From positions 1 through 11,029 of the forward strand of contig QHPM01000292.1 of assembly GCA_003219095.1 (NCBI GenBank): a stretch of DNA of 11,029 bases, read 5' to 3'. The stretch comes from Verrucomicrobiota bacterium (lineage in GTDB: Bacteria > Verrucomicrobiota > Verrucomicrobiia > Chthoniobacterales > UBA10450). Each line of letters begins with the position of its first letter. Position 1 is the stretch's first letter. Of the stretch, positions 2,275 to 11,029 are shown one piece after another. The notes beneath the pieces are model-generated. The model searched no databases, was not told the origin of the DNA, and saw nothing but the letters and a program-made list of their open reading frames with translations. A program made the translations under genes and the position numbers.

Positions 2275-4137
2275 TTAATCTTCGTGCAGTTCGAGACTTG
2301 CGTCGCGGAAGGGTTGGTGCTGTCGATATTGGGCGAGGACGGCAACAAATTCGTCGGCCAATTCGCGGTTCCCTTCGCGCTGTGCAAATGCGTATCCACG
2401 CTCCGCTGTTGCGATGGCATCGTCGAATCGACCGGCCTCGGCGTAAGCCGCCGCTAAGGTCCGATGCAAAATCGGGTTGATGCCGCCGGCGAGTTTCAGT
2501 GCGCGTTCCGCCAACACGACCGCGCGAATTCCGTTGCGGAGCGAAGCGTCGGGCGCGGTGGCCAACACCCATGCCAGGTTGCTCTGTGCATTTCCATCAT
2601 TCGGGTCTAATTCAAGGGCGGTTTCCCACTGCTCGATAGCGGCGCGCGTCTGATGTTTTTGTACCAGCAAAACACCAAATGTGTTGTGCGCGCCGATCTT
2701 GTTCGGCTCGGCCTCCACCTGCGCGCTCCAGAAAAGAATCGCTTCGTCGAGTGGTTTCCCTTCCAGGCCGACCGGTATTTCGCCGTAAACGCCAGCGGCA
2801 GCGGGGCGAATTTCCGCGGCTGCTCGCGCGTGCGCGATTGCTTCTTCGGTTTTGCCCTCGGCGAAGAGCGAGGTCGCGAAGGCAAGATGTGCGCCGTCAT
2901 TATTCGTCGTCACCGCGAGTGTATGTGGCCAAAGCGAATCGGCGTTGCGCCAGAACGTGGTTTGATGATATGCGCAAGCACTAAGAGCGATGGTGATAAT
3001 AGTGCAGGCGATGGCGCCGATTTGTTTCTGGAGACGCCAGCGTACCGTCAGTTCGGCAACCAGCCACACGATGGCGATAGTGATGCCGATGAGAGGTAGA
3101 TAAGTATAGCGATCGGCATGACTTTGCCGGCCTACCTGCACAATGCCAATTACCGGGACCAACATGCCGACAAACCAAAACCAGCCGGTGAACAGAAACG
3201 GGAATCGTTTTCGGTAGATAATCGCGATCGCCGACAACGCGACCAGGAGTGCAGCACAACCGGCGATAGTCAGGAACGGGACAAATTTTTCCGGATGCGG
3301 ATAAAGGACAGCGAGATCGACTGGCCAGATCAGCTGACGCAAATAGATCGCGTAGCTCACGATTGCGTTTTCAAAACGCAGCGGAAAAGAGAATCCGAAA
3401 GTGTCGATCGAGCCGTGTTGCGCCAGCACGGTGGCAACGGCCGAAACAGTGGCGAAGAGAGCAAAGGGAATCTTTTCCAAAACCAGCGAAATGATTTTCT
3501 CCTTTTGAAAACGATTCAGCGGCCAGTAATCGATTAACAAGAGCATGAACGGAATCGTGACCAGCATTGGTTTGGAAAGCGTCCCAAGCGCGGCGGCAAC
3601 CAGCGCGATCAAATAGCGCGCCACTGATTTCCGTCGTACGTAGTTAGACCACGCCAGTAGAGTGAGCGCGAAGAAGAGACCGCTGAGGACATCTTTGCGT
3701 TCGGCGATCCATGCCACCGATTCCGCTCGTAGCGGATGAATGGCGAAGACTGCGGCGACAAATGCGCTGCGCCAGATTTTTCCAGTCAGCGAGTCGAGGG
3801 CAAAAAATAACACGATGGCGGCGAGGGTGTGAACGACGACGCTGCTGAAATGATGGAGGCCCGGGTTTACGCCGAGCAGTTGGCAATCCAGCATGTGCGA
3901 CAGGGTGGTGATGGGATGCCAGTTGGCGGCGTGAAAATGAGTGAAGGCCCATGCGACGTTAGAGAAGCTCAACCCGCTGGTCACGTGACCGGAGCGATAA
4001 ACGTAATCGTGATCATCGTAACGGACCCAATCGAAGTGCGCGGTTTGCCCGAAGACAATCCAGACCAGCGTGGCCAGACCCAGGACGATCAGAATTCTTG
4101 CGTAACCCATCTTCAAACTGAAGCGCAGACTATACAC
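2275..4137 (-). CDS. Polytopic membrane protein with C-terminal TPR repeats, TMTC-like (GT-C-type fold)
   Basis: About 620 residues in two parts. The first 400 or so are membrane-embedded: a first helix at about 11-30, then a periplasmic loop with FDWVRYDDHDYV (Y40-D41-D42) and NWHPITTLSHMLDCQLLG. A conserved HPLRAESVAWIAERKDVLS segment (about 134-152) follows, then a series of further helices. The last 200 or so (about 405-605) form TPR-like helical pairs, clearest at NTFGVLLVQ...AIEQWETALELDPND and LAWVLATAPD. This is the pattern of bacterial TMTC-like TPR proteins related to GT-C glycosyltransferases. The acidic pair after the first helix sits where GT-C enzymes keep a catalytic or metal-binding Asp. 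Substrate and acceptor are unknown, so glycosyl transfer is inferred. The start given is a GTG at 4137; the ATG at 4110 (611 residues, just before the first helix) is about equally likely. It stands alone, with repeats on both sides. Confidence 0.8.
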   Translation of the reverse strand: MYSLRFSLKMGYARILIVLGLATLVWIVFGQTAHFDWVRYDDHDYVYRSGHVTSGLSFSNVAWAFTHFHAANWHPITTLSHMLDCQLLGVNPGLHHFSSVVVHTLAAIVLFFALDSLTGKIWRSAFVAAVFAIHPLRAESVAWIAERKDVLSGLFFALTLLAWSNYVRRKSVARYLIALVAAALGTLSKPMLVTIPFMLLLIDYWPLNRFQKEKIISLVLEKIPFALFATVSAVATVLAQHGSIDTFGFSFPLRFENAIVSYAIYLRQLIWPVDLAVLYPHPEKFVPFLTIAGCAALLVALSAIAIIYRKRFPFLFTGWFWFVGMLVPVIGIVQVGRQSHADRYTYLPLIGITIAIVWLVAELTVRWRLQKQIGAIACTIITIALSACAYHQTTFWRNADSLWPHTLAVTTNNDGAHLAFATSLFAEGKTEEAIAHARAAAEIRPAAAGVYGEIPVGLEGKPLDEAILFWSAQVEAEPNKIGAHNTFGVLLVQKHQTRAAIEQWETALELDPNDGNAQSNLAWVLATAPDASLRNGIRAVVLAERALKLAGGINPILHRTLAAAYAEAGRFDDAIATAERGYAFAQREGNRELADEFVAVLAQYRQHQPFRDASLELHED

Positions 4138-4240: not shown

Positions 4241-4266
4241 GATCCTTCGACTTCGCTCAGGATGAC
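4241..4266. repeat. GTCATCCTGAGC-family palindromic repeat, copy A (half element)
   Basis: Read on the minus strand, these 26 bases are identical to the left arm of copy C (6930-6955). ATCCT (4242-4246) and AGGAT (4258-4262) give a small internal stem. The second arm seen in copies B-D is missing or decayed. The surrounding gap (4138-4317) also holds CAAGC/GCTTG arms (4191-4212) and a C-rich/G-rich run (4279-4300, CTCCCCAAAGGGGG), but no gene. The short minus-strand reading frame across it (with the peptide HPERSRR) is a by-product of the repeat. Confidence 0.65.
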
Positions 4267-6929: not shown

Positions 6930-7012
6930 GTCATCCTGAGCGAAGTCGAAGGATCCCGCAGTGTTACCTTAAAGTTTTCATCACGGGATTCCTCGACTCC
7001 GCTCGGAATGAC
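6930..7012. repeat. GTCATCCTGAGC-family palindromic repeat, copy C (glnB-glnA gap)
   Basis: The left arm 6930-6955 (starting GTCATCCTGAGCGAAGTCG) pairs with the right arm, which ends at 7012 and reads, reversed, GTCATTCCGAGCGGAGTCG. ATCCCG/CGGGAT also match. The loop 6961-6980 is AT-rich. It fills most of the 152 bp between glnB and glnA, so a transcript covering both genes would carry a large hairpin there, which could change their relative levels. Confidence 0.7.
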
Positions 7013-7685: not shown

Positions 7686-10600
7686 ATGCCCCGCGATTCC
7701 TTCGTTCACCTTCATCTTCACACCGAATACTCGCTTCTCGATGGCGCGGTGCGGATGCGAGAGCTGATGAATGAAGCGGTGAAAATGAAAATGCCGGCGG
7801 TGGCGATTACCGATCACGGCAATCTTTTTGGGGCGATCGATTTTTACCAGTGCGCCAAGGCGGCCGGAATCAAACCGATCATCGGTTGCGAGGCCTACAT
7901 CACGAGTGGCTCATATAAGGAAAAACCATCACGCGAATCCACTTTTCATTTCACCTTGCTGGCGGAAAACGAGACCGGCTATCGCAATTTGGTGAAGCTG
8001 ATTTCGGCGGCGCATCTCGACGGTTTTTATTATCGCCCGCGCATTGACAAGGAATTACTGGCGGCGCATGCCGACGGTTTGATCGGCCTGAGCGGTTGTC
8101 TTGCGAGTGAGATCAACAGCGCCATTCAAGCCGGCAACGTTGAAAAAGCGCAGAATCTGACCGCGGAATATCGCGACATTTTTGGGCCGCGAAATTTTTT
8201 CATCGAGTTGCACGACCACGGCATGGCCGAGCAAAAGCAATGCAATGCGCACCTGCCGAAATTCGCCCGCGAATTTGGACTCGGTCTGGTTGCGGCCAAC
8301 GATGTTCATTTTCTCCGGCGCAGCGATCACAAAGCGCACGACGCACTTCTTTGCATCAACACCGCAGCAAAAATTGAAGACCAACAGCGGATGCGTTATG
8401 AGCCTGAGCTCTACTTCAAATCGCCTGCCGAAATGCGCGAAGTCTTTCGTGATTTTCCTGACGCGACCAAGAACACGCTCGAAATCGCGGACCGCTGCAA
8501 TCTCGAAATCGAGTTCGGGAAATCGAAATATCCCGAGTACCCGGTGGCGCCGGGAAAAACACGTGAAGGTTATTTGCGCGAGCTTTGTTACGAAGGTTTG
8601 CACGAGCGTTACGGTGAACGCGCAGCCAACGATCAGGAATTAATCAAGCGACTGGATTACGAAGTAGATGTTCTGGAAAAAACGGGTTTTGTTAGTTATC
8701 TCCTCATTGTTTGGGACTTTATTCGTTTCGCCAGGGAACGCGGAATTCCGGTGGGACCGGGTCGCGGTTCCGCCGCAGGTTCCATCGTGGCCTACGTCCT
8801 GGGAATCACCGATATCGATCCGTTGCAGTACGGACTGATCTTTGAGCGTTTCCTCAATCCCGAGCGCATTTCTCCGCCCGATATTGATGTGGACTTTTGC
8901 GAGGCGCGTCGTGGCGAAGTCCTTGAATATGTCCGGCAAAAATACGGCGAGCGTCGCGTCGCGCAGATCATCACTTTCGGCCGGTTAAAAGCGCGCAGCG
9001 TAGTGCGGGATGTGGCGCGGGTGATGGGACTGAGCGTGCGGGACGGCGACCGGATCGCGAAAATGATCCCGAACGAGTTAAACATTACCCTGAATTCGTC
9101 GGTCGAGAGAAATCCGGAGCTGAAACGAGCAGTCACGACTGAGCCGCAGACGAAGCAGTTGATGGAATACGCGACCGCGTTGGAAGGACTTTCCCGCAGC
9201 GCCGGTGTGCACGCAGCCGGAGTCGTGATCAGCGATCGGGATCTCTCCGAGTACGTGCCGCTCTGCCGGGACACGAAGGGTAACGACATCGTCAGTCAGT
9301 ATTCGATGAATCCATTGAACGACCTCGGGCTGCTGAAAATGCAATATCTGGGGCTGAAGACGCTGACGGTGATCGAGGACACGGTGACGCTGATTCGAAA
9401 AAATGTGCCCGGCTTCTCGCTCAAGAACATTCCGCTGGATGACGCGGCCGCGTTCGGGCTCTACAACCGGGGCGAAACCATTGGCTTGTTTCAAATGGAA
9501 TCGGGCGGGATCACGTCGGTCTCGAAGCAATTCGATGTGCGGAAACTGGACGACATCATTGCGTTAATCGCGCTTTATCGTCCGGGGCCGATGGAATTGA
9601 TCGGTGATTACATAAAGCGGAAGAAGGGGCTAACGAAAATTAGATACGAGCATCCGCTGCTGGAGGAAATCTGCGCCGACACCTATGGAGTGATGATTTA
9701 TCAGGAGCAGGTGATGGCGGCGGCGAGCAAACTGGCTGGGTATTCGATGGGTCAAGCCGATTTGCTCCGGCGTGCCATGGGGAAAAAGGACAAGGAAAAG
9801 ATGGCGAAAGAGCGCGCCAATTTCATTGCCGGTTGCGCGCGCACCAATGAGATCGGGGAGAAAAAGGCGAACGCGATTTTCGATTTGCTGGAAAAATTCG
9901 CCGGCTACGGATTCAACAAGAGCCATAGCGCGGCCTACGCGCTGATCAGTTACGAGACGGCGTTTTTGAAAGCGAACCATCCGGTCGAGTTCATGGCTGG
10001 TTTGCTCTCGAACGAAATCAATAACACCGAAAAAATCTCGGTGCTGGTGAGCGAATGCAAACGGATGGGCATTACCATTCTGCCTCCGGACGTGAATCGG
10101 AGTGGGTTGAAATTCGTGCCGGAAATGTGGGAGGGGCCTCAGTGTCCCGACGGTCGTGGCACTGAGGCCCCTCCCACATTCAGCGCCATTCGCTTTGGTC
10201 TGGCAGCGATCAAGAATGTCGGCGCAGGAGCGATGGAATTTGCCATTAGCGAGCGCGAGCGCGGCGGCGACTTCAAGTCGCTGGAAGATTTCTGCAGCAG
10301 GCTCGATTCGCGCATCGCCAATCGCAAAATGTTGGAATCACTGGTCAAGTGCGGCGCGTTCGATTTCCTGCGCCACGAACGCGCGGAACTCTTCGCCTGC
10401 ATCGATGACGCGCTGGCCTCGTCGGCTGCGGCGCATCGCGATCGAATGGCGGGACAAGTCTCACTTTTCGGAGACACGCACGAACATGTCGCGCCGGCAC
10501 GCAAGCGGACTGTCGCGCCGTGGAGCGATCGCGAGAAGATGAGCTACGAAAAGGAGTTGCTCGGTTTTTACGTCACCGGACATCCGCTCGATGCCTATGC

Positions 10601-11029
10601 CAATGTTATTGCGAACGGGAAATATCAATCAATTGCGTCGCTCGGTGAACTTTCCGATCGTACCACATTCCGGGTCGCGGGCGCGATCACTCAGGTGGAC
10701 AAGAAATTTACCAGGAAAGAAGCCAAACCGTTCGCGGTTGTCTGGCTGGAAGATCTAACGGGCACGCTCGAGCTGGTGATTTGGAACGAGCTTTATCTGG
10801 AGTGCGCGGAAAAGTTGGTGCCGGGAAATGTCATCGGAGTCAGGGGCAAACTCGATCTGCGCGATGAATCGTTGCGGGCGACGGCGGAAAAACTGCGCCT
10901 TCTCTCGTCCGAGCTTCCGGGCGATTCAAACCCGGCCAGCGTCGTGACGCCGCCGCTTTGTCTGCATTTTTCGGCGAATGCGGGTAGCGATGAACTGCGG
11001 GAGGTTCAGGTGCTGCTGGCGGCTTCACC
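7686..11029 (+). CDS. dnaE: DNA polymerase III alpha subunit, 3' end outside the window
   Basis: Replicative polymerase of the C family; 1,114 codons are visible and the frame is open at the window edge (E. coli DnaE has 1,160). The PHP domain at the start keeps H10, H12, D43, H44 and E69, then HF, SGCLAS and NDVH motifs. The metal site lost in E. coli therefore appears intact, as in DnaE proteins with PHP exonuclease activity. Polymerase motifs: GPGRGSAAGS (about 358-367), PDIDVDF with D401 and D403, GVHAAGVVIS, LYRPGPM, YGVMIYQEQVM, LLRRAMGKK and FNKSHSAAYALISY. A clamp-binding QVSLF lies at 924-928 and an OB-fold at about 995-1075. Odd: residue 553, in LLKMQYLGLKTLT, is Gln where E. coli has D555 (VKFDFLGLRTLT). 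Residues 814-832 are an insertion encoded by a palindrome. The start at 7686 gives MPRDSFVHLHLHTEYS, as expected for the family. Confidence 0.96.
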   Translation, partial: MPRDSFVHLHLHTEYSLLDGAVRMRELMNEAVKMKMPAVAITDHGNLFGAIDFYQCAKAAGIKPIIGCEAYITSGSYKEKPSRESTFHFTLLAENETGYRNLVKLISAAHLDGFYYRPRIDKELLAAHADGLIGLSGCLASEINSAIQAGNVEKAQNLTAEYRDIFGPRNFFIELHDHGMAEQKQCNAHLPKFAREFGLGLVAANDVHFLRRSDHKAHDALLCINTAAKIEDQQRMRYEPELYFKSPAEMREVFRDFPDATKNTLEIADRCNLEIEFGKSKYPEYPVAPGKTREGYLRELCYEGLHERYGERAANDQELIKRLDYEVDVLEKTGFVSYLLIVWDFIRFARERGIPVGPGRGSAAGSIVAYVLGITDIDPLQYGLIFERFLNPERISPPDIDVDFCEARRGEVLEYVRQKYGERRVAQIITFGRLKARSVVRDVARVMGLSVRDGDRIAKMIPNELNITLNSSVERNPELKRAVTTEPQTKQLMEYATALEGLSRSAGVHAAGVVISDRDLSEYVPLCRDTKGNDIVSQYSMNPLNDLGLLKMQYLGLKTLTVIEDTVTLIRKNVPGFSLKNIPLDDAAAFGLYNRGETIGLFQMESGGITSVSKQFDVRKLDDIIALIALYRPGPMELIGDYIKRKKGLTKIRYEHPLLEEICADTYGVMIYQEQVMAAASKLAGYSMGQADLLRRAMGKKDKEKMAKERANFIAGCARTNEIGEKKANAIFDLLEKFAGYGFNKSHSAAYALISYETAFLKANHPVEFMAGLLSNEINNTEKISVLVSECKRMGITILPPDVNRSGLKFVPEMWEGPQCPDGRGTEAPPTFSAIRFGLAAIKNVGAGAMEFAISERERGGDFKSLEDFCSRLDSRIANRKMLESLVKCGAFDFLRHERAELFACIDDALASSAAAHRDRMAGQVSLFGDTHEHVAPARKRTVAPWSDREKMSYEKELLGFYVTGHPLDAYANVIANGKYQSIASLGELSDRTTFRVAGAITQVDKKFTRKEAKPFAVVWLEDLTGTLELVIWNELYLECAEKLVPGNVIGVRGKLDLRDESLRATAEKLRLLSSELPGDSNPASVVTPPLCLHFSANAGSDELREVQVLLAAS
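10124..10180 (+). repeat. 57-bp palindromic element inserted in frame within dnaE
   Basis: The arms 10124-10144 and 10160-10180 are perfect 21-bp reverse complements; the inner end of the left arm reads GAGGGGCCTCAGTG. The 15-nt centre holds its own CGAC-G-GTCG stem (10148-10156). Length is exactly 19 codons and the dnaE frame continues unbroken. The added residues (M814 to F832, rich in Gly, Pro, Glu) fall between VNRSGLKFVPE and SAIRFGLAAIKNVG. In E. coli these flanks are joined by only a short loop (VNDDGEIVYG region). No other copy is in this window. Confidence 0.85.

Follow-up and report, generated by a model that had tools for sequence, protein, structure and literature searches.

Palindromic repeats of several kinds lie in frame in one loop of DNA polymerase III in a family of soil Verrucomicrobia

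Introduction

Inteins and IStrons are mobile elements that persist inside conserved housekeeping genes and leave the host gene functional. Palindromic repeats can also lie inside genes. In the parts of their survey drawn on here, Di Nocera et al. (2013; PMC3733652) described GTAG/CGTC REPs within genes, where they encode 20-30 residues as dimers or groups. Most of the intragenic GTAG cases came from the Verrucomicrobium O. terrae. Many intragenic REPs lay in replication and repair genes, among them those for DnaE2 in several species and for DnaE in R. conorii. The recB gene was a same-site case: two Xanthomonas species carried different REPs at roughly one position in it. The authors speculated that mutators arise when REPs enter replication and repair genes.

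Rickettsia palindromic elements are rickettsial, ∼150 bp long and each carry a conserved peptide (PMC10969869). REPINs and BIMEs consist of inverted repeat units, and the RAYT gene is flanked by two inverted units (PMC2817692, PMC3116915, PMC8266576). RAYTs recognize the hairpin strand with a GTAG foot and cut at CT, and also at CA in one system (PMC8266576).

Here we describe a palindrome within dnaE of a bacterium belonging to a family of soil Verrucomicrobia. As with the REPs of PMC3733652, palindromic repeats lie in frame, including in replication genes. In the parts of that study covered here, genes of one functional category carried REPs at different sites, recB excepted, whereas in this family a single DnaE loop has held seven kinds of repeat and undergone 30-38 changes. 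Those same parts make no mention of a host gene with a transposase gene in frame within it, whereas here RAYTs are found in frame in carB and recG. In-frame REPs, including those in DnaE2 and one DnaE, are thus already published in the sections cited; what stands out here is the recurrence and the in-frame transposases. A literature search, with most subscription journals beyond its reach, revealed no recurrent repeats in one DnaE loop, and no in-frame carB transposase was recognized in it.

Results

A near-perfect palindrome lies in frame in dnaE

The window, the whole stretch of 11,029 nt analyzed, is contig C139 of G000, a 2.38-Mb draft genome which is 74% complete. Its last gene is dnaE, and we use class A as the name for the kind of repeat that forms the palindrome at 10124-10180. 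The relevant features are as follows.

7686..11029, + strand: dnaE, DNA polymerase III alpha subunit, 3′ end beyond the window (ORF, NCBIfam and Pfam)
10122..10187, + strand: variable DnaE loop of 66 nt (22 codons), from LKFVP to IRFGL, both conserved (alignment of relatives)
10124..10151, + strand: left arm of the class A palindrome (inverted-repeat search)
10153..10180, + strand: right arm of the class A palindrome (inverted-repeat search)

The ORF list gives the dnaE frame as 7686-11027, stop-free through the palindrome and still open at the window end. Its product scored above cut-off against the NCBIfam DnaE equivalogs (1396 and 1364 bits) and contained the Pfam domains PHP, DNA_pol3_alpha, DNA_pol3_finger, HHH_6 and OB. 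The palindrome is 57 bp long, with 28-nt arms of 93% complementarity, a 1-nt spacer and a longest exact arm of 21 bp. Together with the open frame, the inverted-repeat search thus confirmed the first-pass annotation, which had reported a near-perfect 57-bp palindrome with 21-bp perfect arms in frame in dnaE. The palindrome starts at the last base of codon 813, and the numbering of the added residues as 814-832 is correct.

The same annotation placed these 19 residues where E. coli DnaE has only a few, and alignment with solved DnaE sequences agreed, showing a much shorter turn at this site, which falls in the Pfam HHH_6 region. We take the solved chains to be those of E. coli, Thermus aquaticus and M. 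tuberculosis, and the site presumably corresponds to about residues 825-830 of E. coli DnaE, by count. Of the proposed surface loop, the loop part stood, as a short turn in the aligned solved sequences; its position at the surface is a probable reading of that alignment.

RNA folding of the palindrome with its flanks (106 nt) gave −65.7 kcal/mol and a z of −7.5, with 0/200 shuffles equally stable, in line with the very stable mRNA hairpin expected from first inspection. In a scan of the window, the dnaE palindrome was the sole inverted pair scoring ≥13 with a gap ≤70 nt. Window scan, fold and the loop shuffles reported below ruled out a chance palindrome. Rfam returned no match at gathering scores for the window and four carB/recG loci.

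Other repeats were observed in the window. A perfect 26-nt inverted pair, GATCCTTCGACTTCGCTCAGGATGAC, lies at 4241-4266 and 6930-6955, and repeats resembling it are held by the DnaE loops of G034 and G070. A half-site of a second kind of repeat (class D, below), with 2 mismatches, lies at 2217-2240, flanked by two related 19-nt units; this region, 2198-2267, sits just beyond the end of ORF 2275-4137.

The same loop is filled by different repeats across the family

A search with a DnaE fragment found a match in 80/83 genomes of the family. Loops were readable in 79 dnaE copies from 78 genomes, G069 having two copies. Outside this count are G004, G032 and G098, with no match at threshold, and G028 and G067, whose contigs (G028:C155, L187; G067:C463, L185) stop inside the loop. 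Repeats in the loop may explain assembly breaks there. The genomes are mostly drafts, in which repeats may mislead assembly but cannot make a repeat from nothing.

Compared with an 8-residue loop, 62/79 copies had at least 10 extra residues, 4 had 1-9 extra, and 13 had none. Of these 62 long loops, 46 contained inverted repeats whose exact arms reached 8 bp or more; dinucleotide shuffles predicted 5.1 such loops. Eight of the remaining 16, which lack 8-bp arms, are class A loops too decayed for this criterion. The long loops of G001, G006, G066 and G101 have no palindrome, either lost or never present. In empty relatives the loop measures 15-24 nt; a close relative without the insert, which the first-pass annotation had advised looking for, was found in the same genus (G007, a 5-residue loop).

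Seven kinds of repeat occur in the loop. They were assigned partly by eye, and genome-wide pattern counts cover A, B/C and D.

Kind A: 18 loops
Kind B/C (GTAGCCG...): 23 loops
Kind D (GTAGCGGCGGTC...): 8 loops
Kind F (other GTAG repeats): 4 loops
Kind G (resembling the window repeat at 4241 and 6930, without GTAG): 2 loops
Kinds E and H: one loop each
Kind not assigned: 9 loops
Empty: 13 loops

By eye, B/C and D are alike, and A, the GTAG kinds, E and G are mutually dissimilar. Because of this dissimilarity the loop must have received at least four insertions, and probably seven or more. Kinds B/C and D are dispersed repeats: D half-sites numbered 21 in G000, 75 in G009 and 66 in G005 (control 0), and B/C half-sites 41 in G000 and 20 in G008 (control 0). 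The loop of G020 is empty, yet its genome holds 31 D half-sites and 1 of B/C; genomic repeats alone therefore do not fill the loop.

From a scan of named genomes the best 80 of 560 relatives were retained, of which 13 were judged family members; the other 67 all had a readable loop. Among these 67 non-family Verrucomicrobia loci, 59 loops were of 12-36 nt (4-12 residues) and 8 were longer. Conservation of the 19 residues across the phylum, the observation named beforehand as speaking against an inserted palindrome, was looked for and was absent, and a conserved protein insertion without the palindrome was rejected on the basis of the 59/67 short turns. In a distant Verrucomicrobium (L118, ‘bacterium isolate BP7.bin46’) the DnaE loop contained a palindrome of GTAG type whose arms were 19 bp long; the genome as a whole had 6 half-sites of this palindrome, two of them being the loop copy (control 0). 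Arms of at least 8 bp were absent from the other seven of the eight longer non-family loops. In another family of the order, the loops of G041, G050 and G057 (L190, L191 and L192) reach 63, 84 and 73 residues and are palindrome-free; one has an EV repeat, and one of these genomes is also among the eight. Such long repeat-free loops indicate that the DnaE turn tolerates extra residues in general.

Class A repeats bracket a RAYT gene

Class A elements were sought with a 16-nt arm pattern allowing up to 2 mismatches, with the reversed pattern as control. This first-proposed search for further copies was positive: G000 yielded 10 half-sites, arranged as five pairs, where the reversed control yielded 1; another pattern found 9 sites. 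Class A thus comprises dispersed palindromic units of one family in one genome. One pair on C114, at 2248 (+) and 2795 (−), brackets a 166-aa RAYT ORF, so that a RAYT gene lies between two inverted units as in a REPtron. This ORF matched the NCBIfam REP-associated tyrosine transposase model NF047646 with 82.8 bits (cut-off 80) and, weakly, PDB 4er8 ‘TnpArep’ (E 2e-4). In the same genus, at least one class A match was found in 8/10 genomes searched, mostly few per genome, with none in G001 and G006 and one in G007.

REPs are usually numerous. Class A, with 5 elements in the 74%-complete G000, is not, and its foot reads GTGGGAG (GGAG) as against the GTAG foot of REPs; kinds B/C, D, F and H of the relatives' loops show GTAG or near forms. 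We nevertheless call class A REP-type because of the RAYT link, despite its low copy number. Comparison of empty and filled loops by eye recognized no target-site duplication, and part of the native turn seems lost.

Class A resembles REPINs and BIMEs, as described in the sections of PMC2817692, PMC3116915 and PMC8266576 used here, in its inverted units and in the RAYT between two of them. It differs in its GGAG foot, its few copies and its location in a coding loop, and other RAYTs lie in frame in carB and recG. The first-pass annotation had likened the insert to Rickettsia palindromic elements. The in-frame palindromic element held up, and as in the corresponding part of PMC10969869, dispersed palindromes lie in frame in unrelated genes; as to its kind, the element is better described as REP/BIME-type than as a Rickettsia palindromic element, since in G000 the same ends enclose a RAYT; its length is 57 bp as against ∼150 bp.

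Both insertion and exchange change the loop

A tree was built from ∼960 nt of dnaE on both sides of the loop, the loop excluded, for 79 family and 4 outgroup copies; 56/80 inner branches were well supported. Parsimony on this tree gave 38 class changes, or 30 without the nine unassigned loops. Near sisters differ in the loop, as with G077 (A) and G083 (B/C), or G058 (A) and G060 (empty). Between G077 and G083, 12 differences fall in 43 nt just upstream of the loop; the fourteen remaining 60-nt windows have 0-5 apiece. This concentration in a 43-nt tract identifies the change as an exchange rather than a fresh insertion.

Could a few old insertions, followed by interspecies exchange of loop alleles through homologous recombination, account for most class changes? 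The G077/G083 tract is an instance of just this process. All 18 class A inserts are read in one frame, and orientation is the same among the 11 compared, pointing to shared descent or exchange for class A, whose frame and boundary are common across genera. But A, the GTAG kinds, E and G are not interconvertible, so that exchange would still require the four or more insertions; class D elements start, by eye, ∼+4, +7, +12 and +24 nt from a conserved Glu codon, distances which fit separate insertions; and L118 lies outside the family. We therefore regard exchange as the source of most class changes as rather unlikely, and we infer the share of insertion as opposed to exchange.

A different account of the recurrence is that RAYTs prefer the loop DNA as a target sequence. 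Insertions do begin near one codon, and inspection by eye showed many B/C and D loops with CT ahead of GTAG; CT is a RAYT cleavage dinucleotide in the section of PMC8266576 concerned, with CA also cut in one system. Yet the site is shared by kinds whose ends differ, kind G without GTAG among them. DnaE2, moreover, is filled in a different linker, its equivalent turn being tight, with no insert, in 20/20 copies (L252-L271; read from translations). A preferred target sequence thus appears improbable.

In-frame repeats occur in other genes and the hairpin decays

We surveyed four ∼200-kb samples from three family genomes and found 55 palindromes scoring ≥14. ORFs of 250 codons or more, which span 64-80% of the sequence, contained only 11 of them; several of the 11 were near ORF ends, and one was in dnaE of G027. 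An ortholog comparison within these samples includes some antisense ORFs. In GlgB, matched in 57/83 genomes, 2/41 near-full-length matches had a net gain of at least 10 residues. As a control, spans between conserved anchors were read in UvrA and LeuS, where 22/30 and 25/27 loci, respectively, had a fitting ORF length. The most-filled UvrA site was long in 9/21 copies, with repeat arms in 3; two LeuS sites were long in 9/25 and 10/23 copies, with repeat arms in 6 and 3. In-frame repeats are therefore general in the family. The DnaE loop was the most filled among the sites measured, few genes being compared. In the DnaE2 linker mentioned above, arms of at least 10 bp were present in 8/12 linkers bounded by strict motifs (of 20 loci), with 0.2 expected. 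A 469-codon ORF with no Pfam match (L219:11738-13144, G022:C24) was also seen to hold an in-frame B/C-type palindrome pair.

To follow the hairpin itself, base pairing was scored in 11 of the 18 class A loops, all 11 of the same length, over 27 pairs and 297 cells. Standard pairing was kept in 76.4% of cells, against 77.7% in shuffles, and changes on both sides of a pair affected 2 pairs, against 2.8 in shuffles. Selection keeping the class A hairpin thus found no support; the hairpin decays without compensation.

These data bear on whether the insert itself is selected, a longer loop or a hairpin altering the polymerase (in fidelity, DNA or clamp contact, or translation pausing) and the repeats being the handiest supply of sequence. 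The 62/79 occupancy of DnaE exceeds that of the UvrA, LeuS and GlgB sites, and the DnaE2 linker is filled by repeats as well. Length without a palindrome is found both in G001, G006, G066 and G101 and in the loops of 63, 84 and 73 residues in the other family, and the relevant part of PMC3733652 offers its mutator speculation for REPs in replication and repair genes. On the other hand, 13/79 loops are empty, including that of a near sister of a filled one (G060/G058), the encoded residues vary by repeat kind, pairing is not kept relative to shuffles, and LeuS, no DNA enzyme, has in-frame repeats too. We consider a selected insert improbable; the insert is probably neutral and the loop exposed.

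Whole RAYTs lie in frame in carB and recG

Beyond the short palindromes, complete RAYTs were found within two host genes.

L331:1145-5176 (G000:C178), − strand: carB, carbamoyl-phosphate synthase large subunit, with in-frame RAYT (ORF, Pfam, RAYT model)
L227:4663-7389 (G027:C9): recG with in-frame RAYT between the helicase domains (Pfam, RAYT model)

In G000 the RAYT match lies within a 1344-codon open frame of carB, in the oligomerisation-domain region (L331; family loci L332-L357). The RAYT model scored 71.3 (cut-off 80, E 8e-20) and Y1_Tnp fell just below its Pfam cut-off (22.1 vs 23); GTAG-type repeat ends flank the RAYT on both sides. G027 RecG scored 23.6 for Y1_Tnp (cut-off 23) and 72.6 for the RAYT model (cut-off 80). 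Its RAYT is bounded by 26-bp perfect inverted ends, and the G022 orthologue is without the insert.

Searching the family with the G000 carB ORF matched at least 79/83 genomes, and carB ORFs among the matches listed were either 1318-1388 codons long or, in 28 genomes as judged by ORF length, 1057-1127 codons long. We read the 30 loci scoring best against the RAYT-carrying G000 ORF, a choice biased towards RAYT carriers; 26 of these 30 had an open in-frame insert of 708-843 nt, a multiple of three and stop-free. In the others, the G083 insert is frame-broken, G068 is without one flank, and there is no insert in G014 (12 nt) or G007 (30 nt). The MP(N/D)HVH and Y(I/V)xxNP catalytic motifs (HuH, Tyr) were kept in 26/26 inserts. 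Mean pairwise identity of the RAYT core was 0.61 among the 25 of one type; G002 carries another RAYT (identity 0.40) at the same site.

Median dN/dS, by a crude method and with most pairs saturated, was 0.14 for the carB RAYT (72/300 pairs with usable dS) and 0.05 for adjoining carB (275 pairs). RAYT and carB identities correlated weakly (rho 0.31), and G099 and G076 had a dS of 0.28 in the RAYT and 1.24 in carB; the element therefore seems to move between carB genes. A Pfam scan detected no splicing domain in DnaE (polymerase domains only), CarB or RecG (host and Y1_Tnp domains only), and the dnaE insert, with 19 residues and no self-splicing domain in Pfam, is not an intein. The resemblance to inteins and IStrons lies in elements residing inside housekeeping genes; the difference is that no splicing domain (Pfam) and no Rfam match (window and four loci) were found.

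Discussion

On the likeliest reading, the palindrome is a non-autonomous REP/BIME-type element which a RAYT probably moves; it lies in frame in a tolerant turn of DnaE, and the loop is refilled by insertion and allele exchange. RAYT-driven events would place the elements, and only those that are stop-free and compatible with the fold would stay. The palindrome would persist because the helix-hairpin-helix turn tolerates extra residues and because its frame has no stop codon. Within the family the same turn has been filled by several repeat kinds, some loop changes being new insertions and others exchanges of loop alleles between related bacteria through short recombination tracts. After insertion, the palindrome decays like ordinary coding DNA and leaves a longer linker. 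Tolerance and exchange explain most of the observations; they account least well for how often the DnaE loop is filled, which exceeds what bare tolerance predicts.

The whole RAYTs in carB and, in one genome, recG make in-frame life in permissive loops look like a habit of these elements. Tentatively, RAYTs might live like inteins without splicing, in frame in carB and recG linkers, where selection for a working, essential host gene would weed out frameshifts and stop codons, while their palindromic derivatives seed the loops of DnaE1, DnaE2 and other housekeeping proteins. This is a possibility to which we give less than even weight. If true, host enzymes would gain new, fast-changing segments by this route. 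The in-frame carB RAYTs raise a new question, namely whether a housekeeping gene can carry a lasting transposase, either as part of its own product or translated from within it.

For the family, the DnaE loop amounts to a repeated natural experiment: one loop of an essential polymerase, with or without mobile palindromes, in 78 genomes on a tree that is mostly resolved. It makes directly testable the guess, published in the part of PMC3733652 cited, that fidelity changes when REPs lie in replication and repair genes.
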